Shown: positions 615 to 19,624 of the stretch, in pieces | How the letters are laid out: each line of letters starts with the position of its first letter | Numbering within the stretch: the stretch's first letter is position 1 | Virus record (IMG/VR): IMGVR_UViG_3300042691_050046 | Location: 1 to 23,164 of that record | Direction: 5' to 3' (one strand) | DNA length: 23,164 bases | Source of the DNA: a virus | Notes under the pieces: generated by a model | Databases searched by the model: none | What the model was told of the DNA's origin: nothing | What the model saw: only the letters and a program-made list of their open reading frames with translations | Program-made: the position numbers and the translations under genes

Positions 615-1385
615 TTAGCCAATAACCCAGGTAAGTGGCTGTGACCCGTCCACATACATTTTGAGTTGTTCGATTAGGCCATCCATTTGAGTCTGTGCTT
701 CGGCTTTCATGGCTGCACCGTTTAGGCTGCCACCGCCCTGCGGTCCAGCAATGGTGCCAAACTTTTCACGTGCTTCACCAATGATCATTTTGCAGTTGGC
801 CACCATGTAGTCACGAATCCACTGACGTATCTGCATGTCACTGAGTAGGTTGATTTCAGGTTTTAAATTATAGGTCCACAGCAATACAACTTCACCTGAG
901 CCTTTGGGGTCACGAATCAACTGCAATTTCTTTGTCACAGGATTCCATGTGTAGTTCATGTAGGCACCAAACATGCGTCCAGCCAGTTCAATGTACTGTG
1001 TGTAGAAGTCATAGGTGGCCAAGCCTCCGGCCACGTTGAAATTCATGAGGTACACATTGATTGACGCCTGTGCAAACGGATCAAAGTTTGATGCAAACGG
1101 TCCTGAACTGTCACCAAAAGTTCTGCGAAAGATCTGACGTACACTCATGACTTCTTGAGGCAGTTCATAAATGTTAACATCTGTGACCAGCTGCATGAAA
1201 CTGTAACTTTCTTCATAGGCATTGTTGGCACGTTGGCGATAGGTACCTATGGTTTTTTGATAGGCAGTTTCGTAGTGTGCTGGATCAAGTTCTATATCAA
1301 TGATATCACCGCCCAACTGAAGTCTCACATATTCATTGAGATCTTGTTTGAGTGTTTGCAGTGATTGCTGTTGTTGTTCTGGCAT
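615..1385 (-). CDS. gp13: gp13-like neck (head-completion) protein
   Basis: 256 aa; T4 gp13 is about 309. The first 90 residues fit the family pattern as I recall it: an N-terminal helix with the 'LxLGG..IDIELDP' stretch (23-34), a tyrosine-rich helix (42-62), then 'YELPQEVMSVRQIFRR' (73-88). The middle holds aromatic 'YDFYTQYIEL' and 'RDPKGSGEVVLLW' beta segments; the C-terminus is helical. In T4, gp13 works with gp14 to finish the head after DNA packaging and form the tail-joining neck. Here gp14 lies on the opposite strand 2.8 kb away, behind accessory genes. The start at 1385 has a GGGAG Shine-Dalgarno (1391-1396, 5-base gap), and a late-promoter-like box lies 18 bases further upstream. 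The identification is by remembered pattern, not by alignment. Confidence 0.72.
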   Translation of the reverse strand: MPEQQQQSLQTLKQDLNEYVRLQLGGDIIDIELDPAHYETAYQKTIGTYRQRANNAYEESYSFMQLVTDVNIYELPQEVMSVRQIFRRTFGDSSGPFASNFDPFAQASINVYLMNFNVAGGLATYDFYTQYIELAGRMFGAYMNYTWNPVTKKLQLIRDPKGSGEVVLLWTYNLKPEINLLSDMQIRQWIRDYMVANCKMIIGEAREKFGTIAGPQGGGSLNGAAMKAEAQTQMDGLIEQLKMYVDGSQPLTWVIG

Positions 1386-1403: not shown

Positions 1404-1411
1404 TATTTATT
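1404..1411 (-). promoter_or_regulatory. T4-late-like promoter box before gp13
   Basis: The minus strand reads CAATAAATAC; AATAAATA matches the T4 late box TATAAATA at 7 of 8 positions. With the usual -13 to -6 placement the transcript starts near 1398, leaving a 13-base leader that just contains the GGGAG Shine-Dalgarno. The 9-mer CAATAAATA also precedes the 276-aa structural gene at 22821. Confidence 0.55.
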
Positions 1412-2036
1412 GTTTTGACTGTATCCAATTTTGTAGTTTTTCGGCTATGAGATCATGCCCCAGTTGATTGGGATGAGCAAAATTTGGACGTATGTACGGA
1501 TTGCTTTGGACATTGACCAAGTGTTCGCCATTGTGATCGCTGGCGCCAAACCAATCAGCTGCTGTTTCTTGACCCTGTGCCCACACACGATCAAGATCAA
1601 CTCCGGGCAGCCAGCGAGTGTATCTTACCCAACCAGCAAAGTAGTAGTCGTCAATGTCAAAAGCGTCGCACCATTTTTGCAGTGCACTCACAGTGGCACT
1701 GTTGCGCATGACTTCATGTTCATCAGTGTGAAAATGAGTGTAAATTTGTTTGCTGTGAGCATCAGCATTGTCCCAACTTAAAAACCTGGGAAAGTGTGCA
1801 GTTCTAGCAGGGTTGGTTAGAAAAAACACCGCAGTGACCTCACAGTCAGCTGTGTGACGTTGTAGATAATCTTGTAACTGATACAGCATATCTTCATTAC
1901 TGGCACCACCTGATCCATAATTGATCAATTGATCAAACCCCATGGTGTCTTTTAGTATCTCGCCATAACGGCGGCCAGCGCCCAACTCAGCACCTTCTGG
2001 CCAACTGTCGCCCAGTGTGAGTAAAATCTTGGTCAT
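1407..2036 (-). CDS. SGNH/GDSL-type hydrolase-like protein
   Basis: 209 aa from the ATG at 2036. Block I is LTLGDSWPEG with the presumed nucleophile S11. A GSGGASN segment follows in the block II position, then FFLTNPAR as a divergent block III. A C-terminal FAHPNQLGH fits block V with the catalytic His188. The residue three before that His, Asp in most SGNH enzymes (DxxH), is Asn here, so the triad may be a dyad or activity may be reduced. Such enzymes are usually esterases or O-acetyl/lipid hydrolases; the substrate is unknown. A longer frame could begin at 2114, but the 2036 ATG overlaps the radical SAM stop as ATGA and puts GDSW near the N-terminus as in the family. There is no clear Shine-Dalgarno, so translation is probably coupled. 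Confidence 0.75.
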   Translation of the reverse strand: MTKILLTLGDSWPEGAELGAGRRYGEILKDTMGFDQLINYGSGGASNEDMLYQLQDYLQRHTADCEVTAVFFLTNPARTAHFPRFLSWDNADAHSKQIYTHFHTDEHEVMRNSATVSALQKWCDAFDIDDYYFAGWVRYTRWLPGVDLDRVWAQGQETAADWFGASDHNGEHLVNVQSNPYIRPNFAHPNQLGHDLIAEKLQNWIQSKQ

Positions 2037-2983
2037 GAAAATTGTGACCGGCTGTTGAGTTTTTTGCCTACAGCAAAAATTTTTGTGTTGTACTGATCTT
2101 TGGCACTGGGGCAAAATTTACACTGCGGTATGACTTGATCGATTTCACGTAAAAACTGCTGGCCGCGAGCAGGCAAGTCAGCAACGGTCAGCGGCTGATA
2201 AGCGGTCAATAGTGATCGATCCTGAGCAGAAATTTCAAATTGATGTTGCTGATCAAATTCTGGAAACAATGCCACAGGACCACATTTGTACAGTTTGGCA
2301 CGTATGAAATGATAGCATTTGAACTGTACAAATCCACATGCTGCATGACTTTGCTCAGGATCGTTATCAAATAAAGTGTACCGTCCTGCTGTATTTTTTT
2401 GCACGGCTGCGCGATAAAATGAATCATATTCCCAAACATGCACACGCATGCCATTGCTGTCGACAAAGGCATGATCGGCACCCCAGGTGTAAGCCACACC
2501 ATGTTCTTTGTTGTAGTATTCAACTGAGCCTTGAAGGAACTTGTGAATTTCATCAAAGCATTGTTGTCGATCATGACCGTTGTGCAAACTCACCCCAATC
2601 CAATTTTTGACCCAAGGCGTAGTGGGGTGACTGAATTGACTGATGCGATCATACAGGCCGGGCACATGGTTCAATCTAGTGCCATTGGTCAGTATCTGCA
2701 CTGACTTTTTCCACAGTTTGTTGATTCCATCTACCCAGTCACAGATGGAAGGATTCAGTAATGGTTCTCCTCCCAGTATGGTTATGCGTTGCAAACGCAC
2801 ATGACTGGCCCAAGTTTGATATTCTGATTCATAATCACTCCAACGTTGCCAGCCCTTGAAGTCATGATCATTGAACCTGTTGCAATTGCTACAGGTCAAA
2901 TTACAAACATTGGTGATGTAAAATTCTACATTGGGTACAAACAGTCGAGGATCCTCTGGATCCTCGTCAACAATATGATGCAT
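2033..2983 (-). CDS. Radical SAM protein with C-terminal extra cysteines (SPASM/twitch-like)
   Basis: 316 aa. The [4Fe-4S]-SAM motif CX3CX2C is present at C27, C31 and C34 (CNLTCSNC), followed by a LGGEPLL segment that matches the GGEP SAM-binding motif and by ILTNGT. The last third carries five further cysteines (ACGF, QFKC, LYKC and CKFC), as expected for an auxiliary Fe-S cluster of the SPASM or twitch type. Members of this class modify peptides, proteins or small molecules by radical chemistry; the substrate here is unknown and no precursor-peptide gene is visible beside it. The gene starts 7 bases after the 378-aa gene and is coupled by ATGA to the SGNH gene, so the two probably act together. 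A 9-bp hairpin lies inside the first 13 codons. Confidence 0.85.
   Translation of the reverse strand: MHHIVDEDPEDPRLFVPNVEFYITNVCNLTCSNCNRFNDHDFKGWQRWSDYESEYQTWASHVRLQRITILGGEPLLNPSICDWVDGINKLWKKSVQILTNGTRLNHVPGLYDRISQFSHPTTPWVKNWIGVSLHNGHDRQQCFDEIHKFLQGSVEYYNKEHGVAYTWGADHAFVDSNGMRVHVWEYDSFYRAAVQKNTAGRYTLFDNDPEQSHAACGFVQFKCYHFIRAKLYKCGPVALFPEFDQQHQFEISAQDRSLLTAYQPLTVADLPARGQQFLREIDQVIPQCKFCPSAKDQYNTKIFAVGKKLNSRSQFS
2946..2966 (-). other. Perfect 9-bp hairpin just inside the radical SAM start
   Basis: Arms CGAGGATCC (2946-2954) and GGATCCTCG (2958-2966) are perfect complements with a 3-base loop. In the minus-strand message the stem begins 17 bases after the start codon's first base, inside the region an initiating ribosome covers. 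It encodes the acidic stretch DEDPEDPR. It may dampen initiation or be a by-product of the repeated Glu-Asp-Pro codons. Confidence 0.5.
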
Positions 2984-2990
2984 GCTGTAC

Positions 2991-4127
2991 TTACCAGGCC
3001 TTGAGCACCATGAGATTCTCGGTGCCCCGAGCGTTCCATGCTGTTTCTGTAGTGGTCAAATCTTTGTAGATCTTACGTGCGGCAGGCTTGCCTGCGGCCT
3101 GCACTGCTTTGACAACATCTGCTGGCTTGCGCACAGTTTTTTGCATGGTCTCAATGGTACTGAACCCAATGATTGAGTTTGACTTCACAGTAAATGCCTG
3201 TGTGTGACTGTCAGCCACAAGGTGGATCAACTTGCGCTTTTTAGTGTCATACAACCAAGCTTCGGCCTTGTCCACAAGGCTTGCGGCTGGCAAGCCTTTG
3301 AGTTTGAGCTCAGGAAAATCCAACATGACTTTAAACTTGGCGGCACGTTTCTCAGGACTCACTGCCTTGACCTTGCGTGGCTTACGTTCTACTTTTTTGA
3401 TTTGCACGTATGCGCCACAATCATTGATTACTGTTTCGCAAAATTTTACAAGGTTGCGCATTTGAATTTTACTGAGATGTCCGTATCCCTCAACCAGCTG
3501 GGCATCTTTACCTTCAATCACAGTTTCAAACTCTGCCAACTTGCGTTTCCAGATGTCGGCAATATTAGATATCATTTGCGGAGCCACGTTCATGCCACGG
3601 ATCACTGTGATGGGTTTGTAGTCTGCTGACATCTTGGCACCGTTTACTAAAAATTCATCAAACATGCCATCTAGTTCACCGGCACATTCTGAAACCTTTT
3701 CACGCAATCGGTCTTGTATGTTGGGGCGGGCAGGTTCATCCACGGTTTGGACCTCTACTGCGGCCTGCTGTTTGAGATCCAGTAATTCTTTGATCAAGGC
3801 TTGCAGTTTGAGTTCTTCTGTGTCACTCAATTCCAAGCCCATCATTTGCATGCGGCACAACCAGCCTGTTGTGAGTCGCACTTGCGAATCTGGAAGTGTG
3901 CGGATTTTTTTGGCATCTCGTGTGCGTTCGTGCGCATCCAAATAGGCCGCAATCATGTCTTTGGCTTCTTTCTTGCCATAAAAGTAATTGTACCAGCCAA
4001 ACGCATAGCTCATGGCACTGATGCGATTGTCGGTGGGCTGGACCCGCCATGTGGGTTCAAGTCCAACATACTTGGTGTCGGCACTTTTGGGATTCATGGA
4101 TTTGAGTGCTGTGCGAGTTGCGTTCAT
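2991..4127 (-). CDS. Conserved unknown phage protein, 378 aa
   Basis: I recognise no family or catalytic motif. The N-terminal half (about 1-130) looks helical and contains aromatic runs (AFGWYNYFYG, 43-52) and an acidic-leucine stretch that could form a coiled coil (about 97-122). The second half has a strongly basic patch (KKVERKPRKVKAV, near 245-257) and a small mixed domain with AWLYDTKKRKLIHL, then ends in a Lys/Ala-rich tail, which would suit nucleic-acid binding (inference only). No signal peptide or membrane segment is visible. Proteins of similar look occur beside neck genes in aquatic T4-like phages as far as I recall, without known function. The start has an AGGAG Shine-Dalgarno (4133-4137, 5-base gap) and the best sigma70-like promoter in the window. 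It heads the leftward gene cluster. Confidence 0.75.
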   Translation of the reverse strand: MNATRTALKSMNPKSADTKYVGLEPTWRVQPTDNRISAMSYAFGWYNYFYGKKEAKDMIAAYLDAHERTRDAKKIRTLPDSQVRLTTGWLCRMQMMGLELSDTEELKLQALIKELLDLKQQAAVEVQTVDEPARPNIQDRLREKVSECAGELDGMFDEFLVNGAKMSADYKPITVIRGMNVAPQMISNIADIWKRKLAEFETVIEGKDAQLVEGYGHLSKIQMRNLVKFCETVINDCGAYVQIKKVERKPRKVKAVSPEKRAAKFKVMLDFPELKLKGLPAASLVDKAEAWLYDTKKRKLIHLVADSHTQAFTVKSNSIIGFSTIETMQKTVRKPADVVKAVQAAGKPAARKIYKDLTTTETAWNARGTENLMVLKAW

Positions 4128-4218: not shown

Positions 4219-5544
4219 ATGCCTCGCTTATCCCTATACCGCCCAAATCGCACCAGAGACTACCAATTTTTGGACCGTACCATACGTGAAATGTACACTG
4301 TGGGCGGACTGGATATCTACATCCACAAATACATGGGACCGCAGAGTGGCGGTGATGATTCGGCCTTGAGTGGCAACTTTGATGCCACACAGCCCACATA
4401 TGAAACAGTAGATGTACTCAACATTCAAGACTTGTTGTTGCTGGAAAATCGTGACAGAATCTACGACCCCGATGTGTATGTCATGCGCGGTGTATACAAC
4501 ACACAGGATGTGGACTTTGATTTGACACAGTTTGGTTTGTTTCTCAACAACGATACCATATTCATGACCTTTCACTACAACACCATGATTGACACCTTTG
4601 GTCGCAAGCTCATGAACGGTGATGTGATAGAAATTCCCAACTTAAAGGACTACCATCCTTTGAACAAGGCCATTCCCCGAGCCTTGCCTAGATACTATGT
4701 GATTCAGGATGCTGATTTTGCTTCCGAAGGATTTTCGGTAACTTGGTTGCCGCACCTGTGGCGTGTGAAATGCACTCCAATGAAGGACCAACAAGAGTTC
4801 AATACCATAACCAACAAACCGTTTGTGACGGAAAACATCTGGGACCCAGGTAATTTTTACCCTAGCAACACCATTGTCAATTATGGCGATACATATTATC
4901 AAGCTCAAGGCAACGTACCAGCTGGCACAGATATAACCAATACCAATTTCTGGGCACCTTATGATCCTGCCACCATTAGTGACATACAGGGCACACGCAC
5001 CAAGGACCTTGAAATCAATGATGCTATACTGATTCAAGCCGATGCTGAGGTACCACTGTCAGGTTACGAGGTTGACAAGTTTTATGTTCTGCCCACACAA
5101 AACGGTGAGCCAGCTAACCCTGCCAGTTTGAGTGCTGACGAAACTGTCACCGTGGATGGTACACAAGGCGGCATGAGTGTTACTCCCAAGGCAGATGGTT
5201 ACACTGTGGGTTACCTAACTGGTGATGGCATTGCTCCCAATGGATTGCCAGTGACCCCTGGAGTAAGTTTTCCACCAAATCCCGTCAGTGGCGATTATGC
5301 ACTGAGATTGGATTACAAACCCAATCGACTGTTCCGGTATGATGGCAAACGTTGGGTAAAAATTGAAGACAATGTTCGCACCAACCTCAACAATGGGCCA
5401 GTTAATAAGACCCTGCGCAGTAGCTTTGTAAATAACACTGACACAGTACAGACCACTGACTTGGGTCGAGTACCAAGTCGTCAGAGTTTGAGCGAGCTGC
5501 TTAAACCCCGTGCAGACAACGGTGACCAAGGTGGTTTCAAATAA
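4219..5544 (+). CDS. gp14: gp14-like neck protein with an inserted carbohydrate-binding-like module
   Basis: 441 aa; T4 gp14 is 256 aa. Residues 1-200 follow the pattern I know from marine T4-like gp14 proteins: MPRLSLYRPN, FLDRTI (17-22), LLLENRDRIYDPDVY (73-87), GVYNTQDVDFDLTQFGLFL (91-109), then the GD-I-IPNLKDYHPLN segment (134-149). In T4, gp14 forms the neck ring with gp13. Residues 207-248 (IWDPGNFYPSNTIVNYGDTY onward, to NFWAPY) look like a CBM5/12 fold: W, aromatic, V.Y.G..Y.A/Q, P.G, W. A C-terminal domain (356-415) has LDYKPNRLFRYDGKRWVK, also a family feature. There is no Shine-Dalgarno; a perfect late box lies 4 bases upstream of the ATG. The next gene, gp15, starts 12 bases after the stop. 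Confidence 0.75.
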   Translation: MPRLSLYRPNRTRDYQFLDRTIREMYTVGGLDIYIHKYMGPQSGGDDSALSGNFDATQPTYETVDVLNIQDLLLLENRDRIYDPDVYVMRGVYNTQDVDFDLTQFGLFLNNDTIFMTFHYNTMIDTFGRKLMNGDVIEIPNLKDYHPLNKAIPRALPRYYVIQDADFASEGFSVTWLPHLWRVKCTPMKDQQEFNTITNKPFVTENIWDPGNFYPSNTIVNYGDTYYQAQGNVPAGTDITNTNFWAPYDPATISDIQGTRTKDLEINDAILIQADAEVPLSGYEVDKFYVLPTQNGEPANPASLSADETVTVDGTQGGMSVTPKADGYTVGYLTGDGIAPNGLPVTPGVSFPPNPVSGDYALRLDYKPNRLFRYDGKRWVKIEDNVRTNLNNGPVNKTLRSSFVNNTDTVQTTDLGRVPSRQSLSELLKPRADNGDQGGFK

Positions 5545-5556
5545 TCAGGCAGCCCA

Positions 5557-6960
5557 ATGCAACAATTTTTTTACGATGAACAAATACGCAGATTCTTGTT
5601 ACAATTCACTAGAATCTTTTCTGGATTCCAAGTCGAATATGCCAACGAAAACGATGGTGTAAACGCCGCCACCTTGTTGCGTGTGCCTGTGCGTTATGGT
5701 GACGCCAGTCGTAATGCGCAGACCATTATACAAGAAAACAGCCGCAACAGTTTACCTTCAACTCCCTTGATGACATTTTACATCACTGGCCTAGACTATG
5801 AACAAAGTCGCATGCAAGAGCCTTACTTTGTGAGCAAGGTCAATGTGCGTCAACGCACTTATGACCCCAGTACCGAAACTTACGAAACCACACAAGGCAA
5901 TGCATTTACTGTGGAACGTTTGATGCCTGTGCCGTTTAAACTAACAATAAACTTAGACATCTGGACATCAAATACCAATCAAAAATTGCAGTTGTTGGAA
6001 CAAATTCTCACATTGTTCAATCCCAGTTTAGAAATACAAAGCACCGACAGTTTTATTGATTGGACCAGTTTGAGTGTGATGTATCTGGACCGCACTGCTT
6101 GGACCAGCAGAACCATACCCATTGGCACAGACAATCCCATTGACATTGCCACCCTGACTTTCAGCATGCCTATATGGATATCTTCACCAGCCAAGGTCAA
6201 GAAACTGGGTGTTGTGGAACGTGTGATTGCCAGCATGTATGATGCTCGAGGTGATTTGCATGACGCTGTCATGAATAACGATTTGCTGTTGGGCACCAGA
6301 CAAGTTATCACACCCTACAACTGGGCCGTGGTGTTGATAGGCAACAAACTGCAATGTTTGCAACAGGTATCTCTAGCTGAAGAGCCCGAAAACGACAGTC
6401 TTACACCGGTAGAAATTGTGCCAGATTCCAACTTGCTGTGGCCTGCTGTTGTGGGTGTATATGGTGCCCTGCGTCCCGGCGTCAGTCAAATTAGGCTGGA
6501 GCAGCCCGACGGTACTGAAGTAATTGGCACAGTAGTGATTGATCCCAATGATGATCGTTTTATGTTGTATGACGTTGATATTGATACCACACCACAAAAC
6601 ACTCTAGCACCAATTGATGCTGTGATAAATCCTTTGACTTCGGGGCCTGGCGATGGTTTAGACAGTGCCTTGGAAGGGCAACGGTACTTGCTGACTGAGG
6701 ATACTGGCAATGTCAACAATGAATTTCCAGCAACTGCCTGGGTTGGCGGCAATGGTCGTGCACTGGTGGCTCAAGCCAATGACATTATTGAGTATCGTGC
6801 TGGATATTGGCAAGTGAGCTTTAGAGCTGCCAGTGAAGAGAATGTAGCACAGTACGTCACAAACATCACTACAGGTATACAGTATCGCTGGACTGGCGAT
6901 TCATGGGTTAAAAGTTATCAAGGGGTGTACCCAGGAGGCACCTGGAGATTGGTTCTGTGA
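5557..6960 (+). CDS. gp15: gp15-like proximal tail sheath stabiliser / tail completion protein
   Basis: 467 aa; T4 gp15 is 272. The first 230 residues match T4 gp15 in layout: FFYDEQIRRFLLQFTRIFSG (4-23) against T4 'FYNSSFRRYATLMGDLFSN', then LRVPVRYGDASR (41-52), LPSTPLMTFYITGLDY (66-81), PVPFKLTINLDIWTSN (125-139) and LLEQILTLFNPSL (146-158), which corresponds to T4 'VEQILPYFQPHF'. In T4, gp15 caps the tail and sheath and docks to the neck. Residues 285-467 are an extra region not found in T4; its end (AQANDIIEYRAGYWQVSF, IQYRWTGDSWVKSYQG) resembles small beta modules of structural phage proteins. The order gp14-gp15 is conserved with T4. The stop TGA overlaps the GTG start of the Nudix gene. 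Confidence 0.8.
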   Translation: MQQFFYDEQIRRFLLQFTRIFSGFQVEYANENDGVNAATLLRVPVRYGDASRNAQTIIQENSRNSLPSTPLMTFYITGLDYEQSRMQEPYFVSKVNVRQRTYDPSTETYETTQGNAFTVERLMPVPFKLTINLDIWTSNTNQKLQLLEQILTLFNPSLEIQSTDSFIDWTSLSVMYLDRTAWTSRTIPIGTDNPIDIATLTFSMPIWISSPAKVKKLGVVERVIASMYDARGDLHDAVMNNDLLLGTRQVITPYNWAVVLIGNKLQCLQQVSLAEEPENDSLTPVEIVPDSNLLWPAVVGVYGALRPGVSQIRLEQPDGTEVIGTVVIDPNDDRFMLYDVDIDTTPQNTLAPIDAVINPLTSGPGDGLDSALEGQRYLLTEDTGNVNNEFPATAWVGGNGRALVAQANDIIEYRAGYWQVSFRAASEENVAQYVTNITTGIQYRWTGDSWVKSYQGVYPGGTWRLVL

Positions 6961-7382
6961 AAGCAGTAGGAGTTTGGTTTCGCAGCAGTGCCACAGGTAG
7001 GTATTTGTACCTGTTGAGAAATGACACTAGACATCCTGGATCTTGGGGCTTGCCTGGCGGCAAAGTGGAAACACAAGAAACATTGTTGGGGGCCATGGAA
7101 CGTGAGTGTATTGAAGAACTAGGTTCAATGCCTGATTATCAGCGTCTGGTCCCCCTTGAAAAATTTACCTCGGCTGATGGACAATTTGAATACAACACCT
7201 GGGGGTGTGTGGTGGAAAATGAATTTGTACCAGTGTTGAATCACGAGCACATGGGCTATGCCTGGATTGATCGGGGGCAATGGCCCAGACCCATGCATCC
7301 TGGCCTTTGGTCTACTGTGAACATTGAAGCTGTGCAAGGCAAGATAGATACTGTGGAACGATATCTTGCCTTGGGTTCTTAG
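6957..7382 (+). CDS. Nudix hydrolase
   Basis: 141 aa. The Nudix box GX5EX7REUXEEXGU lies at residues 35-57: G35, E41, R49-E50, E53-E54, G56, preceded by the usual WGLPGGK. The U position after RE is Cys51 rather than an aliphatic residue, and the final U is Ser57. Nudix enzymes cleave nucleoside diphosphates linked to another group; T4-like phages use them against nucleotide sugars, ADP-ribose, Ap4A or oxidised dNTPs, and the substrate cannot be inferred here. Translation starts at GTG 6957, overlapping the gp15 TGA (GTGA). An AGGAGG at 6933-6938 is 18 bases away, too far to be ideal, so coupling is likely. The last four bases overlap the end of the convergent 1318-aa gene, and the 3' end carries a 12-bp inverted repeat. 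Confidence 0.9.
   Translation: MKAVGVWFRSSATGRYLYLLRNDTRHPGSWGLPGGKVETQETLLGAMERECIEELGSMPDYQRLVPLEKFTSADGQFEYNTWGCVVENEFVPVLNHEHMGYAWIDRGQWPRPMHPGLWSTVNIEAVQGKIDTVERYLALGS
7335..7373. terminator. 12-bp perfect inverted repeat at a convergent gene junction
   Basis: Arms CAAGGCAAGATA (7335-7346) and TATCTTGCCTTG (7362-7373) pair without mismatch around a 15-base loop. It sits inside the last codons of the Nudix gene, 6 bases before the overlapping stops of two convergent genes. No T-run follows on either strand, so it is not a classical intrinsic terminator. It could mark or protect transcript 3' ends in both directions. Confidence 0.45.
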
Positions 7383-10300
7383 GCCTGGCTTTCTTCGAAA
7401 CTCAACTGAATCTCGCCCACTGGATTTGATGAGGTGCTCAATGCTGTGATCACCACGGCCAACACCTCGGGTCCGTTGGGGTAGGTACCTTTGCCGGGCA
7501 CAGCACTCTGCCCAATTTGTTTGATATTGGTCAAATCTAGGGTGTTGGTGCCTGTGGATTGAATTGGTATGGCAAACAGTCGTTCACCACCAGTTACGTC
7601 TGCACTCACCGCTGCAACTGTCAATGAAAGATCATTGGCTGGTGTAGATCCGCCCAGCGCATTGCCAAGAATCTTCACAGTGTCGCCCACAGCATAGCCT
7701 GACCCAGGATTTTGAACGCTGAGTGCTGTAGTGGTCACACTGTAAGAATTTTTGTTGGCCTGTAACTGCACTGTGACATTGGCTCCTGATCCCGAACTTG
7801 ACACATTGGTCAATGTCAAGTTAGCATAAGTTTTAAACGACCCACTGAGAACCATGGTACCTGAGCGTGAAAAACCACCAGTTGTATTAAGTGGGGCTGC
7901 CTGTACGCCGCCAGTTGATTCATCTGTGTAACGTGGTGCAACAGCAAATTGTGAGAAGCTGGGTTGATATCCACCACCTGCATTGTTTAATCCAGACCAT
8001 ACAGTGTTTGCTGAGTCAATGTTGTTGGGATTGAGAATACCTGTAACAAGATACCGTCCTGCTGTGACGTTGACTGTGAGTGTTTTCAGTGTTAATTGAG
8101 CACGATTGATCAATTCGCGCACACCCAAGTCACCAATGATGCCATTGCTGACACTGGGTGCTAGGCGCATCAAGAAAGCAGTCTGACTTGCACCCACTGT
8201 GGCTGGCAAACCATAGTTGCTGCGATTGTATGTGAACGAGAAACCTTCGTCGCCGTCAAAAGTACCGTCCATGATAATTGCTGATCCCCAGTGATTGACC
8301 AAAGGCACACAAGTATTTGATATCAAAATTACACCTGTGTTGTCGGCATGAGTGGTAGCTGCTGAGCTGGTGTAACTGCGACTTTGCCCTTCAGCCCACT
8401 GAGTGAATGTGGCTGCTCGAGTACAACCAGTAAGTGTGTTACCAGACTTGCCACTGTATCTTACAATTTCGCTTTCGATCATCACGTATGCAGGATAGGT
8501 CACTGATGCAGGCGGATAGTCAGTTGCGTCCACTAGGGGAATAGTGGTTTGGCTGCTGTCAATTGCACCATTCAGCGCACTGGTGGGGGTTTCGTTGATG
8601 GCTTCATAGCGTCCTGGTAGATTTCCTGATCGCATGAAGGCTTCGTTGTTCAAGTTGTTGTTGGGACGACGATGTGCCCAATTAAACTGACCGTCTTGGC
8701 CGCGAATCAACCAAATAATTGTACCTGCACCATACCAAGAATACTCCATGGCATACATTTGCATCTTGCTCACATCCAAGGTAAATCCAGAAGGTCCAGT
8801 ACCATCCAATCGGTCAATGTTGAAATCGCTCTGACGCACACGAAGTTCAGTCCGCAATGCCATTTTCACACGAGTTTGATTGGAGACTCCACGATAAGTA
8901 GGCACCACTGTCATGCGATTGTTGTTGGTGATTGATGCCACTGAGTGCGTCATACCTTTGATGACCACAGTATCTCCAATGTTGAGTTGATCCTGGAATC
9001 TGCATGTGCCATCGCCTGTGACCAAGTTTGATCCTACTGACACGTTGACAAAACCAGCCAATTGAAAAGTGCTTGAACGCAACACCGCATTGGTACTGAT
9101 ACCATCACACTCCCAGAATATTCCGTTTTGATCATCAAACATACCGGCTCTGATACTGGCGCCATGCCAAGCTGTTACATTGAGTCTGGGTTTTTGTCCC
9201 AACACAGGTGTTGCACTGCCCAGTACAACTTGTGCCTGCACCACAAATGTCAAATCACTGGTGATTGATGTTACAATATAGCCAGTTTGATTGTATCCAG
9301 ATGTGGTTATCCCACTCAAGGTCACAGTGGCACCTGCATTGAGTCCATGTTCAACATCAGTGGTAATGGAGATGTTGCTGTTGATTGCTGTTCCACTGGC
9401 TGTGACATTGGTTACGTCAAACGTGGGTGCTAACACAGTACCAGTGCTAAAGAATATACCTTTGCCTGATTGATAACGGAAATATTTCTTTGTGGTACGT
9501 GTTGCCGACGCACCACGTGTGGGAGTTCCTGGGCCAATTAAAACACCGCCATCAAATGATCTAGGCAAAAAGGCAGCGTTGCTGCGGACGTTAATGGTGG
9601 CAGCCAGGGATCCGCTGACCGCTGCTCCAGTTTTGGCTGTGAATTGAAAGGATGTAACACTGGGAACCGCGGTGATAAGAAAAGAACCTTCTGCATAACT
9701 TGCGTTGGTACCTGATGTCATATCCACAGTGATTGGACAACCCGGAAACAATCCGTGCGCATACACTGTGTTGACTGTGATCAAACTGGGATTGAGCCCA
9801 TCACTGGTCACGCTGGCAATGTCAAAATCAGCTCCCGAATATGGGAAGGCCTGGCGTATCAGTGTGTCAGTTTGATTTAATGGATATCCAGGTGGCACGT
9901 TTATTGCTCGACGTGGATAATATGCAAAGTTGTTGGTTTCTCCCAAGTACACAACACTGACGCCTTCAGCATTGCTGGCTGCTGTGTTTTGAGTACTGGC
10001 ATAATCGTTGGCATCCAATGGAGAATCTGTTACGTTTACTGTGACTGTTGGTATGGTATTTGAACCACCATAGAACAGTCCAGTCAAACGCACAAAAGGT
10101 GAACCAACACCGGCTGTGGTCAATGCTGTGGTATTGAATTGCCCACGAGCAATGGTTTGAGTGCCGTTGACACCGGTGGCGGCTGTGCTGTTTTTAACAA
10201 TTTCAACATTGCCGCTAAGAAGTTGGAACACAGAGCCTGCTACAAATGAATTGGCAGCAGAAATGTTATACCAACCACGATTCAACTGCAGAGTGGTTGC

Positions 10301-11335
10301 ATCAGTTACTTCTTGTACTTGGGCAATTTCAATTGTGCTCACAGCATACACATTCTTGCCGGTGGAAATATTAGCACCTGCCCCGTTGGTTTGATTGCTT
10401 TGACGAACCACAGTGAGTGCATTGGTTGATACTGAAGTCACTGCCATGACTTCATATACACCTGGTGAATCGGTTTGGACAATAATGTAAGTCCCTGCCA
10501 CAATGCCTGCACCAGCAGCACTGGTCACATTGACTGTGGTAGTGGCCACGCTGGTAATGTTGCTGACAGCCGTGGTGGTTCCGCCCGAAGACGGCAAACC
10601 AATTATGACAATGTGGTCACTGGCAGCAATGCCCGTGGTTGACGCCACAGTGAATGTACGCTCTGCCGAGCTGTTGACATTGGCTGTTATATAACTTGAC
10701 ACCAACGGAGTGGTGTTGCCTTGAGTTTGACTCACAATCAACACATAGTCATTGTTTACAAACTGCGGTGTGCCTTGATTTTCAGTGTTGACCGAAGTGT
10801 CTACAGCACTGGTCAAAAGGTTGGTACTGGACAACAGTGTGGCATAACCATTGGTATTGTACACCAGATCAGCACCAATATCTTCATAAAAGGTGGGGAT
10901 GTTGTTAGTGGTTGATACGTTTTGCCATTTGGTACTTTGCAAACCGTATTCAAAGTCAGCATCAATCAGTGATTCAGGATTGGCCACACGGCTGCGACCA
11001 ATTGCGTCCATTCCAAATTCCCAGGGTTGGCTGGGCAAGTAGCGATCTTCATAATAAATGGCCAATTCATCACCAGCACTCAAACCAGATGTATCTGCAT
11101 CCAAGGTCAGTGTTGTGACACCAGCATAAGCTGTGGGGAATGTGGCAGTGACACCATCTACCCAGACCGCTGTGCCACCTTGACTGGGTGCACCAAAATT
11201 GTAAATTGACGTATTGGTTGTAATATCATAAATGGCCAGGAAATCTTCCAGGTTCACACGATTAGGAACTTGAATTGTTCCCACGCCTGCTGTACCTGGT
11301 GTGAACGAGTACTCGTAAATTCTTTTTCTTGCCAT
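7379..11335 (-). CDS. Giant mosaic virion structural protein / adhesin, 1318 aa
   Basis: The N-terminus (MARKRIYEYSFTPGTAGVGT, then a DAIGRSRVANPESLIDADFE stretch near 110-130) matches a class of very large structural proteins seen in marine T4-like phages, position and role unproven but usually grouped with tail or fibre genes. It is a chain of small beta modules: two 'HGLxxG' modules near residues 525 and 663, a central block WYGAGTIIWLIRG near 872, an 'IESEIVRYSGKSGNTLTG' module near 955, and a conserved RELINRAQLTL segment near 1075. It is Thr/Ser/Asn-rich with no signal peptide, membrane segment or enzyme motif. The ATG has a GGAG Shine-Dalgarno 10 bases upstream and follows the 130-aa gene by 3 bases. 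Its TAA overlaps the end of the convergent Nudix gene by four bases. Confidence 0.8.
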   Translation of the reverse strand: MARKRIYEYSFTPGTAGVGTIQVPNRVNLEDFLAIYDITTNTSIYNFGAPSQGGTAVWVDGVTATFPTAYAGVTTLTLDADTSGLSAGDELAIYYEDRYLPSQPWEFGMDAIGRSRVANPESLIDADFEYGLQSTKWQNVSTTNNIPTFYEDIGADLVYNTNGYATLLSSTNLLTSAVDTSVNTENQGTPQFVNNDYVLIVSQTQGNTTPLVSSYITANVNSSAERTFTVASTTGIAASDHIVIIGLPSSGGTTTAVSNITSVATTTVNVTSAAGAGIVAGTYIIVQTDSPGVYEVMAVTSVSTNALTVVRQSNQTNGAGANISTGKNVYAVSTIEIAQVQEVTDATTLQLNRGWYNISAANSFVAGSVFQLLSGNVEIVKNSTAATGVNGTQTIARGQFNTTALTTAGVGSPFVRLTGLFYGGSNTIPTVTVNVTDSPLDANDYASTQNTAASNAEGVSVVYLGETNNFAYYPRRAINVPPGYPLNQTDTLIRQAFPYSGADFDIASVTSDGLNPSLITVNTVYAHGLFPGCPITVDMTSGTNASYAEGSFLITAVPSVTSFQFTAKTGAAVSGSLAATINVRSNAAFLPRSFDGGVLIGPGTPTRGASATRTTKKYFRYQSGKGIFFSTGTVLAPTFDVTNVTASGTAINSNISITTDVEHGLNAGATVTLSGITTSGYNQTGYIVTSITSDLTFVVQAQVVLGSATPVLGQKPRLNVTAWHGASIRAGMFDDQNGIFWECDGISTNAVLRSSTFQLAGFVNVSVGSNLVTGDGTCRFQDQLNIGDTVVIKGMTHSVASITNNNRMTVVPTYRGVSNQTRVKMALRTELRVRQSDFNIDRLDGTGPSGFTLDVSKMQMYAMEYSWYGAGTIIWLIRGQDGQFNWAHRRPNNNLNNEAFMRSGNLPGRYEAINETPTSALNGAIDSSQTTIPLVDATDYPPASVTYPAYVMIESEIVRYSGKSGNTLTGCTRAATFTQWAEGQSRSYTSSAATTHADNTGVILISNTCVPLVNHWGSAIIMDGTFDGDEGFSFTYNRSNYGLPATVGASQTAFLMRLAPSVSNGIIGDLGVRELINRAQLTLKTLTVNVTAGRYLVTGILNPNNIDSANTVWSGLNNAGGGYQPSFSQFAVAPRYTDESTGGVQAAPLNTTGGFSRSGTMVLSGSFKTYANLTLTNVSSSGSGANVTVQLQANKNSYSVTTTALSVQNPGSGYAVGDTVKILGNALGGSTPANDLSLTVAAVSADVTGGERLFAIPIQSTGTNTLDLTNIKQIGQSAVPGKGTYPNGPEVLAVVITALSTSSNPVGEIQLSFEESQA

Positions 11336-11338
11336 TTT

Positions 11339-11731
11339 TTAAACTCCAAATATGATTTGATTGGCAGTCAGTGTTGACTGTGTGTCATCACTGAATCTGT
11401 CGTAATTGATTGTGCCAGCAGCAATTTTGCTGTTTGTCACAGTGGCATCACTGGGTGTGCCTGTATATAGTGTATCTCCAAACAACAAGCCAAAGAATGG
11501 TGTGAATGCTGCAGGTGGTGAGGCAAAACTGATGGTGCTGCTTGAAATTGAAAAGTCTACTCCTGGGTTCAATATCACATTGTTCAAACTGATCATCATG
11601 GCATAGGATGTAGGCGGATTGAATGGCACACCACTGACGGTGATGTTGAACGTTTGAGTCACACCGTTGAACACAAGATTGTCCATTTTTCGATATTGAC
11701 CAATTTGCGGGGTATAGCCTAGATATGCCAT
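11339..11731 (-). CDS. Short fibre-adaptor protein, 130 aa, paralogue of the 1013-aa fibre N-terminus
   Basis: It starts MAYLG, as does the 1013-aa fibre upstream, and shares its first-domain plan: an FN-V-TFNITV strand pair, an LNNVILNPGVDFSIS turn matching 'STLQRPNTDYTANG', then ISFASPPA matching LLFASPPT. The end (SKIAAGTINYDRFSDDTQST) is typical of the segment that links this adaptor to a fibre shaft, but no shaft follows. Either it caps or plugs a fibre attachment site, or it is what remains after a fibre lost its shaft. The AAGGAA Shine-Dalgarno precedes the ATG, and the gene lies 8 bases after the 1013-aa stop and 3 bases before the 1318-aa start. Confidence 0.75.
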   Translation of the reverse strand: MAYLGYTPQIGQYRKMDNLVFNGVTQTFNITVSGVPFNPPTSYAMMISLNNVILNPGVDFSISSSTISFASPPAAFTPFFGLLFGDTLYTGTPSDATVTNSKIAAGTINYDRFSDDTQSTLTANQIIFGV

Positions 11732-11739
11732 TTTTTTCC

Positions 11740-14700
11740 TTATAGTCTTCCAACAACAATTTCAATTATACCAGTACCACCTGGATGGTCCTGTAATGCT
11801 TTACCAATCACTGCGCCCATTCTGGGTTCAGTACAGGCTTGTGCTCGACCGCCACCGGCTGTGACCATCATGTCACCTTTGGCAACCGGGCCTACCACCA
11901 ATGTTGGTACTCGACCGGTCAACGCCACTGCTGCCACATGCTGTGCTTTCAACCCTGAGTTCATGATGTGTGCAGGATTGGTAGATACCACACCTGCTAC
12001 ACGCACATCGTTTATACCAATGGCCTGGGTGACTTCTTTATCACCGCCAAATACCAGCACAGTACCCGGAGGGTAGTGAGCATCTGCTTCATACCATTCT
12101 GCCAAGTCAGCGTATTGTGCTGATGTGGCCTTGGCAAACACTGTGTTAAAATATCCTGTGGTTGAGCCAATATTGCCTACTCCATTGGCTTGTCCATTTG
12201 TGATGTCTTTGTTGACAATAACAGTGCCTGTTCCAGTTGGAGTTAGTATGATTGATGCATTTGCTGCTGTACTGGTAATTGTAGCATTGGCTGCAGAATT
12301 TAACACAGCACTGATCAAATTGCCACCAATAACATTGCCAATGACAGAAACTGTGGTGCCTGTGTGTGTTGTGGCATTGACATTTGCTCCACCCAAGACA
12401 TTGCCACCAGTGATATTACCAGTTACTGACACTGTGGTGCCTGTGTGTGTTGTGGCATTGACATTTGCGCCACCAAATACATTACCACCAGTGATGTTGC
12501 CCGACGCACTGATTGACACAGCATTGACTGCTGAGGTGGCAATGATATTTGCACCTGTGATATTAGATGCTGATATCAATGCACTTAACACATTGCCTGA
12601 CAGGCTGATACCTGTGGCATTCAAATTGCCACCAGTGATGTTACTGGCTGTAGAAATTGGTGATTGAACATTACCGGTTAAACTCAAACCTGATGCATTC
12701 AAGTTGCCAACCGATATGTTTCCTGCTACACTAAGGGCAGTATTGCTGGTATTGGCAATGACCACTCTTGTGGCTGCGGCAAATGTGGCTAGACCAGCAG
12801 CGGTACCGTTGGTGGTGGGACCAATATTGATGTTTGTGGTGGATCCAATGCCCCCATTTTCACCAATATTGACATTTTTAATATTGCCAGTGCCTGTTAT
12901 GCCGCCACCGATAAGCACAGTGTGATTTGCAGTGCTGATGCCAAGATATAATGCACCAGTTTGAGATATGCCACCAATGGTTATAATGCCTGTGGTTTGA
13001 CTGGTACCTATGTTGATGTTTGCTGTGGTTGCTACCAGAGCAACTTCTCCTGTGGCACTGAGTGTGGCAGTTTGCACCAGGCCAGCAGTGGTGATGTTAC
13101 CACCAGTCACATTGCCTGACACACTGACCAAACCAGTGACATAGGCACCAGTATTGGCAAATGCGGCCACATTACTTGTGCCATTTACGTTGACAGTGAT
13201 ATTACTGCTGTTGAGTATTTGAATATTACTGGTTCCGTTGGCAAGACCTGCATTGACAATGCCACTCAATTGACTGCCGTTGCCAAGGAAGTAGCTGGCA
13301 GTGATATTGCCTGTGGCTGTTACTACCCCAGTTGAAAAAACATTGCCAGCTCGTACATTGGCTGTGATATTGGCATCTGCAGCAGCGGTCAAATTGTTTG
13401 CCGCACTGATATTGTTTCCAAACACATCACTTACCGCAGATACAATACCCACTGTTCTTATATTGCCGCCTATGATATTGCCACCAGCACTGACCACCGA
13501 CACTGCTGTGACGTTGTTACCAACAACATTGGCCACTGTGGTGATCAAGCCACCAGTGATGATATTACCACCAGACACATTGCCTGCACTGGTTACATTA
13601 CCAGTTGAACTGAACAGCCCAGCAGTTTGAATATTGCCAGCAATTACATTTCCAGCCGCGCTGATTGTGGTACTGGCTGACAAAGTACCAGTCACCAACA
13701 CACCACTGCTTGACACCACTGCAACAGTGACACCGTTGACATTGTTGACAATATTGCCGTTGGCAGTTGGAATTGTTACTTTGCTGTCGTAATTGCTGAT
13801 AGTGTTAGAAGAACCGCTGGCTGCTACTCCAGTGAGAAAAGCGCCATTACCAAGCAAGTATGTGCCAGAAACATTACCGGTGGCGCTGATGTTGGCCAAT
13901 AACAAATCTGTGAGTTGAAAACTGGGCGCATTGATATCTACTTCAGTAGTGGGTTTGGGTAAAAGATTCGTGAACAGTTTGTATTTGGCATCGGTAATAT
14001 CCCGAAAATATCCTGTATAACGTGTGTCAGCGCCATCAAAATATTGAGAAATTACCCCAGTATCAAATGAATCACCCGGGTTGGCATTGGCCAAAAAGAT
14101 AAACGGATCAGTAACTGTGAGACTATCTGCACCTGTGGTAGTAAATGTACCATTCACTGTGAAGTCACCCACACATGTGATGTCGCCACCTACATTTAAA
14201 TTTCCTGTGACTCCAACACCACCTGCTGTGGTAATTGATCCTGTGCCAGTGTTTGAGCTTTGAGTGGTATCCGTAATGGAGATAGTACCGTTGGCATTGA
14301 TATTACCGTTGATGCCTATGCCTCCAGCCACTACCACTGCACCAGTGATGTTACTCACTGACACCGCATTGGCATTGAATACAGCACGATCCGCACCACT
14401 AACTGACACAGTCATTGAAGATGCATTAGCCCAGTATAGGCCTGTGTTGTTGGCTGCTAGACTAACCAACCCAGGTGCAGCGGCTGTACCTGCATTGACA
14501 GCTTCCACTGTGAGGTCAAGGCTGCTTAGAGCGCCAGCTCTATAAGTCACAGTGATATTATTAGTGCCAGCTGTGGGCGGTGAGGCAAACAATAATTCTG
14601 TGCCATTGGCTGTGTAATCAGTGTTGGGTCTTTGCAGAGTGCTGCCAATCATGACATCTAAATCAGATGCTGAAGCCACACTGCGTGCCAAAGTAAACTG

Positions 14701-14781
14701 GAACAATATGCCATCGCCGCTGAATGTTTCGGTGCTGGTGTTTAGCAGTGGGGTGTTGGGTTGAATACCAAGATATGCCAT
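11740..14781 (-). CDS. Repeat-rich tail fibre, 1013 aa, with a C-terminal maturation/chaperone-like domain
   Basis: Domains in order: adaptor (1-85, MAYLGIQPNT...), a transition with SITTAGGVGVTGNLNVGGD, a module around VTDPFIFLANANPGDSFDTG and YTGYFRD (about 215-285) that recurs in marine phage fibres, then GN-rich repeats (about 300-885) of the form TGN-(I/V)-TGGN with two YxLGNGxxLxG motifs, then a compact C-terminal domain (886-1013). The last begins QYADLAEWYEADAHYPPGTV and includes RVAGVVSTNPAHIMNS and ALTGRVP. It resembles the 'YADLAE...GxVS.NP' domain at the ends of many phage fibres and, distantly, the Peptidase_G2 self-cleaving chaperone of podovirus appendages (inference). Its start overlaps the stop of the 110-aa gene (TAATG). 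Probably a host-binding fibre or adhesin. Confidence 0.8.
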   Translation of the reverse strand: MAYLGIQPNTPLLNTSTETFSGDGILFQFTLARSVASASDLDVMIGSTLQRPNTDYTANGTELLFASPPTAGTNNITVTYRAGALSSLDLTVEAVNAGTAAAPGLVSLAANNTGLYWANASSMTVSVSGADRAVFNANAVSVSNITGAVVVAGGIGINGNINANGTISITDTTQSSNTGTGSITTAGGVGVTGNLNVGGDITCVGDFTVNGTFTTTGADSLTVTDPFIFLANANPGDSFDTGVISQYFDGADTRYTGYFRDITDAKYKLFTNLLPKPTTEVDINAPSFQLTDLLLANISATGNVSGTYLLGNGAFLTGVAASGSSNTISNYDSKVTIPTANGNIVNNVNGVTVAVVSSSGVLVTGTLSASTTISAAGNVIAGNIQTAGLFSSTGNVTSAGNVSGGNIITGGLITTVANVVGNNVTAVSVVSAGGNIIGGNIRTVGIVSAVSDVFGNNISAANNLTAAADANITANVRAGNVFSTGVVTATGNITASYFLGNGSQLSGIVNAGLANGTSNIQILNSSNITVNVNGTSNVAAFANTGAYVTGLVSVSGNVTGGNITTAGLVQTATLSATGEVALVATTANINIGTSQTTGIITIGGISQTGALYLGISTANHTVLIGGGITGTGNIKNVNIGENGGIGSTTNINIGPTTNGTAAGLATFAAATRVVIANTSNTALSVAGNISVGNLNASGLSLTGNVQSPISTASNITGGNLNATGISLSGNVLSALISASNITGANIIATSAVNAVSISASGNITGGNVFGGANVNATTHTGTTVSVTGNITGGNVLGGANVNATTHTGTTVSVIGNVIGGNLISAVLNSAANATITSTAANASIILTPTGTGTVIVNKDITNGQANGVGNIGSTTGYFNTVFAKATSAQYADLAEWYEADAHYPPGTVLVFGGDKEVTQAIGINDVRVAGVVSTNPAHIMNSGLKAQHVAAVALTGRVPTLVVGPVAKGDMMVTAGGGRAQACTEPRMGAVIGKALQDHPGGTGIIEIVVGRL
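12127..13884 (-). repeat. GN-rich protein repeat region of the 1013-aa fibre
   Basis: Degenerate units centred on TGN(I/V)xGGN(I/V) recur through the frame, many spaced about 17 codons, without frameshift. Repeat-to-repeat DNA identity ranges from loose to perfect. This is a coding array, probably a long beta-structured fibre shaft. Confidence 0.8.
12351..12468 (-). repeat. 37-bp perfect direct repeat, 81 bp apart
   Basis: Copies at 12351-12387 and 12432-12468 are identical and encode a segment containing NVNATTHTGTTVSV. The offset, 81 bases, is 27 codons. Identity at the DNA level suggests a recent internal duplication. Confidence 0.85.
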
Positions 14782-15113
14782 TAGGTAATTTCCATTATAC
14801 TCATGATTGCATCAAGGCTAGAACTTGCACTACTTTGAACCCACATAGAGTCCCCTGTGACCAAGACAATTTTTTGATCTCCGCCTACAACCACCAAACT
14901 GGCTCCTGAACTTATAGGCGAGTTGGCTACTACATAGGTATTGGCCACTCCATTGTTGATGTAAACATTGGCATTGACTGCGCTGCCAGTTTTGTTGGTA
15001 ACTGTCAATCCAATTATCACTGTTGATGTAGATGCGCCCACAGTGTAGCTGCCAACTTGAGTTGCAGTAGCCCCAATGTTTTGAGAAAGTTTTCGTGTAA
15101 AAGTATTTGCCAT
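14781..15113 (-). CDS. Small virion-associated protein, 110 aa
   Basis: MANTFTRKLSQNIGATATQV is followed by alternating beta strands: YTVGASTSTVIIGLTVTN (near 23-40), an AVNANVYINNG strand, and SGASLVVVGGDQKIVLVTGD. I know similar short proteins between fibre genes in aquatic phages; they look like small beta-sandwich structural or fibre-junction proteins. No catalytic motif, signal peptide or membrane segment. It sits between the 1485-aa and 1013-aa fibres, 3 bases after the first and sharing one base with the second (TAATG), so all three should be translated together. A TAGGAT Shine-Dalgarno-like site overlaps the end of the upstream gene. Function unproven. Confidence 0.75.
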   Translation of the reverse strand: MANTFTRKLSQNIGATATQVGSYTVGASTSTVIIGLTVTNKTGSAVNANVYINNGVANTYVVANSPISSGASLVVVGGDQKIVLVTGDSMWVQSSASSSLDAIMSIMEIT

Positions 15114-15116
15114 TTG

Positions 15117-19574: not shown

Positions 19575-19596
19575 GGATAAACAAGGTCCTCTGGTG

Positions 19597-19604
19597 TATT
19601 TACC
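19597..19604 (-). promoter_or_regulatory. Weak late-like box before the 1485-aa fibre
   Basis: GGTAAATA matches TATAAATA at 6 of 8 positions, in the 50-base gap between the 546-aa and 1485-aa genes. The predicted start point (about 19591) falls inside the AGAGGA Shine-Dalgarno, which argues against it. This gap holds nothing else I can support. Confidence 0.25.
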
Positions 19605-19624
19605 AAAAGTCCAGGTTTGCTGTT

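Follow-up and report, generated by a model that had tools for sequence, protein, structure and literature searches.

An exchangeable radical SAM–SGNH gene pair between neck genes of freshwater T4-like phages, with a proposed role in glycan tailoring

What do a radical SAM enzyme and an SGNH-fold enzyme do between two genes of a phage neck cluster? The question is raised by IMG/VR virus record IMGVR_UViG_3300042691_050046, a 23,164-base fragment that was analyzed whole (the window) and that represents a lineage of freshwater phages within the T4 superfamily. On its minus strand, a 378-aa gene of unknown function (2991..4127; phrog_11903, E = 5e-56) and gp13, encoding the neck or head-tail adaptor Ad2 (615..1385; phrog_211, E = 6e-26), form the left and right flanks of a slot holding the radical SAM gene (rSAM; 2033..2983, 316 aa) and the SGNH gene (1407..2036, 209 aa from the ATG at 2036; the program-made list of reading frames gave 235 aa from an upstream TTG). 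The rSAM stop codon and the SGNH start codon share the sequence ATGA (2033..2036, minus strand; TCAT on the plus strand). The position of the pair and this overlap agreed with the preliminary description of the locus. The divergent neighbor (4219..5544, plus strand), labeled gp14 here, has a virion structural family as its sole match (phrog_11591, E = 8e-80), and gp15 was identified by its match to PF16724 (E = 2.6e-24). A nudix hydrolase gene (6957-7382, plus strand) begins 4 nt inside the end of gp15 and adjoins gp15 in relatives too. Much of the rest of the window (7379-21265, minus strand) is taken up by very long, fibre-like reading frames of 1318, 1013, 1485, and 546 aa, rich in Ser/Thr/Asn/Gly repeats, whose products are possible glycan acceptors.

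To define what occupies the slot, relatives were collected from three seeds, rSAM, SGNH, and gp13, the last of which gave a set independent of the cargo. The slot was often empty in the gp13-seeded sample, with only 26 bp left, and this was the case in many relatives with a near-identical gp13. The 378-aa gene adjoins gp13 in cultured PA5oct-type phages, and in PA5oct itself the two homologues are direct neighbors, 35 bp apart. Where filled, the slot reached up to 2.8 kb (range, 0-2.8 kb) and contained no fibre genes. Single-gene forms carried rSAM, C2, C3, or, at locus L137, SGNH; two-gene forms carried rSAM + SGNH, rSAM + C2, or two rSAMs; and larger forms carried rSAM + SGNH followed by C3, C6, or another rSAM. 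C2, the alternative partner of rSAM, is a protein of 355-364 aa that appears glycosyltransferase (GT)-like from a reading of its motifs; profile searches of Pfam, PHROGs, and PDB gave no match that would assign it to a glycosyltransferase family. Because the slot is empty or variable in relatives and its flanks are direct neighbors in PA5oct, the rSAM + SGNH pair is optional, exchangeable accessory cargo, separate from the neck machinery, and a tie to neck function was not supported.

Turnover at the slot was then mapped onto a gp13 tree of 89 rows, giving about 36 changes of slot state, an approximate count since many branches are weakly supported and two loci with rSAM + C2 (L084 and L105) are tagged as C2. 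The empty state did not cluster at all (15 rows, 15 changes), and two loci with an identical gp13 protein differed in their slot, one holding C2 (L109) and the other being empty (L110). In two relatives (L082:7654-8001 and L083:6002-6349) rSAM was cut to its first 115 codons and SGNH was missing, as in a decaying copy of the cassette. Slots with two radical SAM genes (L071, L195, and L173) drew them from different clades. A scan of genome contigs for a bacterial source of the cassette yielded only one 31-residue match. Searches of cultured phages gave no match to SGNH, to the alternative slot partners, or to C3, and two distant matches to rSAM.

rSAM and SGNH were adjacent in 55 distinct viral junctions, all tight, and such recurrence indicated that their adjacency is not due to chance. 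The junction was exact ATGA in 16 of the 55 and TAATG in 8; most of the remainder overlapped in other ways (by 8, 11, 29, or 32 nt), and a 1-nt gap also occurred. Five of the 55 had no ATG start near the expected site, and elsewhere the spacing ran from a 1-nt gap to a 32-nt overlap. Pairwise protein distances over 46 loci correlated much better between rSAM and SGNH (r = 0.78) than between rSAM and gp13 (0.30), and the former correlation persisted when gp13 was taken into account (partial correlation, 0.75). On the rSAM tree, partnership with SGNH required 9 changes versus 33 with shuffled labels, with the rSAMs tagged as alone including some (L020 and L067) whose contigs end with a cut SGNH downstream; the nine rSAMs partnered with C2 formed one clade (support, 99). 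These data indicated that rSAM and SGNH are co-inherited and move as one unit.

The preliminary description had read the overlap as a sign of a two-step reaction, and had taken homologues found apart, or loss of ATGA in related phages, to argue against a joint function. Judged by these conditions, the outcome was mixed. The overlap by itself is weak evidence, since pairs of rSAM with a GT-like gene and the gp15-nudix pair overlap too; what upholds the two-gene unit is the set of tight junctions and the correlated distances. Exact ATGA is missing from most relatives, yet tight coupling is kept. Separation of the two genes proved asymmetric: rSAM is common at the slot without SGNH, whereas SGNH almost never occurs there without rSAM (L137 being the one exception), in a search that was seeded from rSAM-linked members and may under-sample unlinked SGNH relatives.

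We also inspected the borders of the slot. In most relatives both junctions carry TAAATA, which contains a stop codon. In the window, TAAATA at 1404..1409 (minus strand), 18 nt before the gp13 ATG, includes the SGNH stop, and at the left junction (2984..2993, minus strand) the stop of the 378-aa gene is followed by TAAGTACAGC and the rSAM ATG. TAAATA is similar to the T4 late promoter core (TATAAATA, located ahead of late genes). The motif is not enriched in the window (8 occurrences versus 7.7 expected); it precedes five gene starts by 4-22 nt and is invariant ahead of gp13 in 18 leaders, a placement that is only suggestive of a late promoter.

The rSAM protein matched the Radical_SAM family above its cut-off (PF04055, E = 4.9e-9). 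Its cluster motif CX3CX2C (C27/C31/C34) was present in 26 of 26 homologues, and of the five C-terminal cysteines that had been noted before (C216, C223, C234, C288, and C291), all are invariant in this set except C223, which is kept in 19. The invariant four, C216-x17-C234-x53-C288-x2-C291, are spaced as expected for one auxiliary [4Fe-4S] cluster, which they are predicted to bind. The structure model (pLDDT, 89; pTM, 0.88) has its first strand at residue 14, leaving no N-terminal recognition domain, and it aligned best with SpeY (7wzv, 7wzx, and 7x0b; Z = 19.4-19.7 over 245-252 residues; rmsd, 3.3 over 245). BtrN (Z = 12.3) and SuiB (12.1) came next and viperin was lower (10.9). SpeY also ranked first with Foldseek (E = 4e-10) and in a sequence profile search (7wzv, E = 3.9e-5). 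It shares with rSAM the barrel + twitch fold, CX3CX2C, and two cysteines 18 residues apart around the twitch hairpin with a conserved His between them; they differ in sequence (16% identity) and in the setting of rSAM, which is paired with SGNH in a cassette among phage neck genes. SpeY is a "twitch radical SAM dehydrogenase" in the wording of its PDB title. BtrN (PDB 4m7t), of butirosin biosynthesis, is likewise a twitch dehydrogenase with a single four-Cys auxiliary cluster, as is expected for rSAM, but its structural match is clearly below that of SpeY (15% identity). The single auxiliary cluster of BtrN is held by four Cys and thought to accept the second electron, while MoaA, with three Cys, leaves a site open (PMC9012708). 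The model thus shows a SpeY/BtrN twitch architecture, and rSAM is probably a dehydrogenase of this type. Enzymes that do not act on sugars (MoaA and SkfB) also belong to the twitch group, which may count against a sugar substrate. Membership in the N_Twi_rSAM family (NF033640) was rejected, rSAM scoring 29.9 bits versus a cut-off of 170.

SGNH matched the GDSL family only below the cut-off (PF00657, E = 5e-4), though its fold is clear from the structure model (pLDDT, 88), which resembled TesA (Z = 13.2), followed by carbohydrate acetyl esterases and PatB (11-12); Foldseek matches to GDSL proteins started at E = 7e-5. The SGNH-like identity proposed earlier is retained. With TesA-type hydrolases, acetyl esterases, and PatB (1ivn, 7toh, and 7trr) the protein shares the fold and the Ser, Gly, Asn, and His residues of blocks I, II, III, and V (S11, G41/G44, N75, and H188), at ~13-17% identity. 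It differs at the position three residues before the His, a triad site outside the four residues that give the superfamily its name, where those enzymes have the usual catalytic Asp and the cassette protein has N185 in 17 of 17 sequences. Given this replacement, SGNH may work as a Ser-His dyad, and the invariant Asn could alter its chemistry. Its predicted role is that of a hydrolase or an acyltransferase.

Clues to a substrate came from the contigs of relatives, the window's own record being a 23-kb fragment. Among cultured phages, the only near-full-length relative of rSAM (25% identity) is in Synechococcus phage S-SCSM2R, where it neighbors glycosyltransferases, an aminotransferase, and an inosamine amidinotransferase. 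At locus L197 a member of the rSAM family lies outside the neck, in a cluster that also contains a GT25 protein (E = 1.9e-14) together with an SGNH from the cassette family. Ten lineage contigs of 90-349 kb (G001-G010) encode 5-19 radical SAM genes each, many with sugar-tailoring genes, and two further contigs (G015 and G017; 178 and 364 kb) encode 19 and 16, versus 0-4 in eleven cultured phages including S-SCSM2R. A sugar aminotransferase was found in 6 of the ten long contigs, the epimerase/dehydratase family in all ten, and a carbamoyltransferase in 8 of all 12. The closest relative, G001 (the contig of locus L002), has six N_Twi_rSAM proteins (218-401 bits), and its region 40000-66000 (loci L247 and L248) combines six twitch radical SAMs with carbamoyl-, amidino-, amino-, and methyltransferases as well as SGNH-like and GT-like proteins. 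The region includes an O-carbamoyltransferase (E = 1e-37), an FkbM methyltransferase (E = 1e-17), an amidinotransferase-like protein, a sugar aminotransferase, and a dehydratase/epimerase, a gene set typical of the chemistry of decorated aminosugars or aminocyclitols. Such genes are absent from the neck slot itself and occur beside the S-SCSM2R relative and elsewhere in related genomes; since the G001 cluster is ~80 kb from the slot, the two are linked by belonging to one genome, a case of guilt by association. Genes for Fe-S assembly also accompany radical SAM genes: at L024:4009-5653 rSAM is followed by an IscU-type gene (NifU_N, E = 1e-52) and an A-type carrier (E = 1e-18), and in G003 an A-type carrier lies ~1 kb after another rSAM-family member.

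With confidence that is about evenly balanced, we propose that the pair is an exchangeable accessory glycan-tailoring cassette, inserted as cargo between two conserved late genes, in which a dehydrogenase and an acyl-hydrolase or acyltransferase act on a phage-made glycan. The variable slot, the co-inheritance, the fold, the Cys pattern, and the genomic context are shown by the data, whereas we infer the substrate, the order of the reactions, and the target as follows. rSAM would use SAM and its CX3CX2C cluster to generate a 5′-deoxyadenosyl radical, which would abstract a hydrogen from a carbon that carries a hydroxyl in a sugar or aminocyclitol. An electron would then pass to the four-Cys auxiliary cluster, leaving a keto sugar, in a two-electron dehydrogenation as in BtrN. 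SGNH would subsequently act on that glycan by removing or transferring an acyl group; this order is proposed since SGNH hardly ever occurs in the absence of rSAM. In other versions of the slot, a GT-like protein would take the second position. Sugar and transferase genes located elsewhere in the phage genome probably make the glycan, and because the slot is part of the late structural region, display on the virion seems likelier than display on the host. The preliminary description had offered a virion protein, a host glycan, or a lipid as the modified substrate; a glycan is where the context points. A bolder version, which we advance tentatively and consider rather unlikely in its entirety, is that these phages make a bespoke, aminoglycoside-like aminosugar or aminocyclitol glycan by radical dehydrogenation, amination, amidination, and carbamoylation, using their own 5-19 radical SAM enzymes, with the neck slot supplying an exchangeable last tailoring step that changes glycan identity between close relatives.

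The same enzymes might instead alter the host surface, modifying the O-antigen or capsule during infection so that other phages are blocked. Such a role was proposed by the authors of the pelagimyophage study for the glycosyltransferases of those phages (PMC7029224), the GT25-type protein beside rSAM in L197 belongs to a family of lipopolysaccharide biosynthesis, and the slot turns over quickly, consistent with an arms race. The late structural position of the slot and the TAAATA before gp13, however, suggest late expression, at which time exclusion would be of little help, and we regard the host surface as a possible target, if on the unlikely side. T4-like phages can glycosylate DNA, and a cassette that tailors sugars on phage DNA against restriction would draw on this ability and on the abundance of radical SAM and transferase genes in the lineage genomes. 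A thymidylate-synthase-type base hydroxymethylase (PF00303), the one route to hypermodified DNA that was covered, was absent from all 12 long contigs (0/12), and DNA appears to be a very improbable target.

Two further readings concern rSAM itself. SuiB, SkfB, and other maturases share its fold (Z = 11-12), and its S-SCSM2R relative is annotated as a maturase of the SkfB/NifB/PqqE family, as would fit a peptide or protein maturase, acting on a RiPP-like precursor or a virion protein side chain, whose product SGNH trims. SpeY, however, scores ~7 Z units above any maturase, the rSAM model is without the N-terminal recognition domain, and no precursor reading frame of at least 40 aa is common to the cassettes. 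The SPASM motif has seven Cys (PMC6231123), whereas rSAM has four invariant C-terminal Cys and a fifth in 19 of 26 homologues. Maturation is accordingly improbable in our estimate. Viperin models were the top NCBIfam and PADLOC matches by E-value, as expected if the cassette produced antiviral nucleotides against competing phages, but the Viperin score (NF038283) was 38.9 bits versus a cut-off of 180 and reflected the shared core only. rSAM also has the four extra invariant Cys, and viperins aligned at Z = 10-11 versus 19.7 for SpeY; a viperin-like function is extremely doubtful.

The preliminary description gave radical SAM and SGNH proteins no standard place in a phage neck cluster, but enzymes near neck genes do have precedents. 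Pelagimyophages possess a hypervariable island with glycosyltransferases, adjoining gp14 and differing by radical SAM cassettes (PMC7029224). This host recognition cluster resembles the slot in that variable cargo, with both glycosyltransferases and radical SAM cassettes, adjoins neck genes; it differs in averaging 44.6 kb between vrlC and gp14 (PMC7029224), compared with a slot of at most 2.8 kb, from the 378-aa gene to gp13 and free of fibre genes. TARA_ERS488813_N000010, a T4-like environmental genome reported in 2017, has 12 radical SAM genes and, like the lineage studied here, combines such richness with Fe-S assembly genes; it is marine, and where that report describes these genes they count among Fe-S genes at large, with no connection drawn to sugars or a neck slot (PMC5332604). 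T4-like phages rich in radical SAM genes (PMC5332604) and such cassettes next to neck genes (PMC7029224) are already on record. Within a partial literature search, the SpeY-like family at the slot, the exchange of its partners, and its combination with aminosugar-type tailoring genes appear to be new. The proposal gives concrete, testable chemistry to phage cargo previously labeled just "radical SAM"; the slot shows how enzymes come and go between conserved neck genes; and lake phages carry sets of radical SAM and sugar-tailoring genes missing from the cultured relatives examined.

Two minor features were observed around gp13. In its leader (1386-1409), as in those of relatives, TAAATA is followed by a candidate hairpin around the ribosome site (CAGGAAC-CGGA-GTTCCTG, GAGAC..GTCTC, and GGGGAC..GTCCCC). 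By eye, it shows apparent paired changes in some relatives, and others lack it; RNAalifold, run on a short and badly aligned set of these leaders, found no pair. On the other side of gp13, the interval up to an exonuclease gene is a second variable one, measuring ~40 bp in the window and expanding to 0.7-2 kb in several relatives (for example, L010:2902-4883, L011:8036-8802, and L032:1423-3013).
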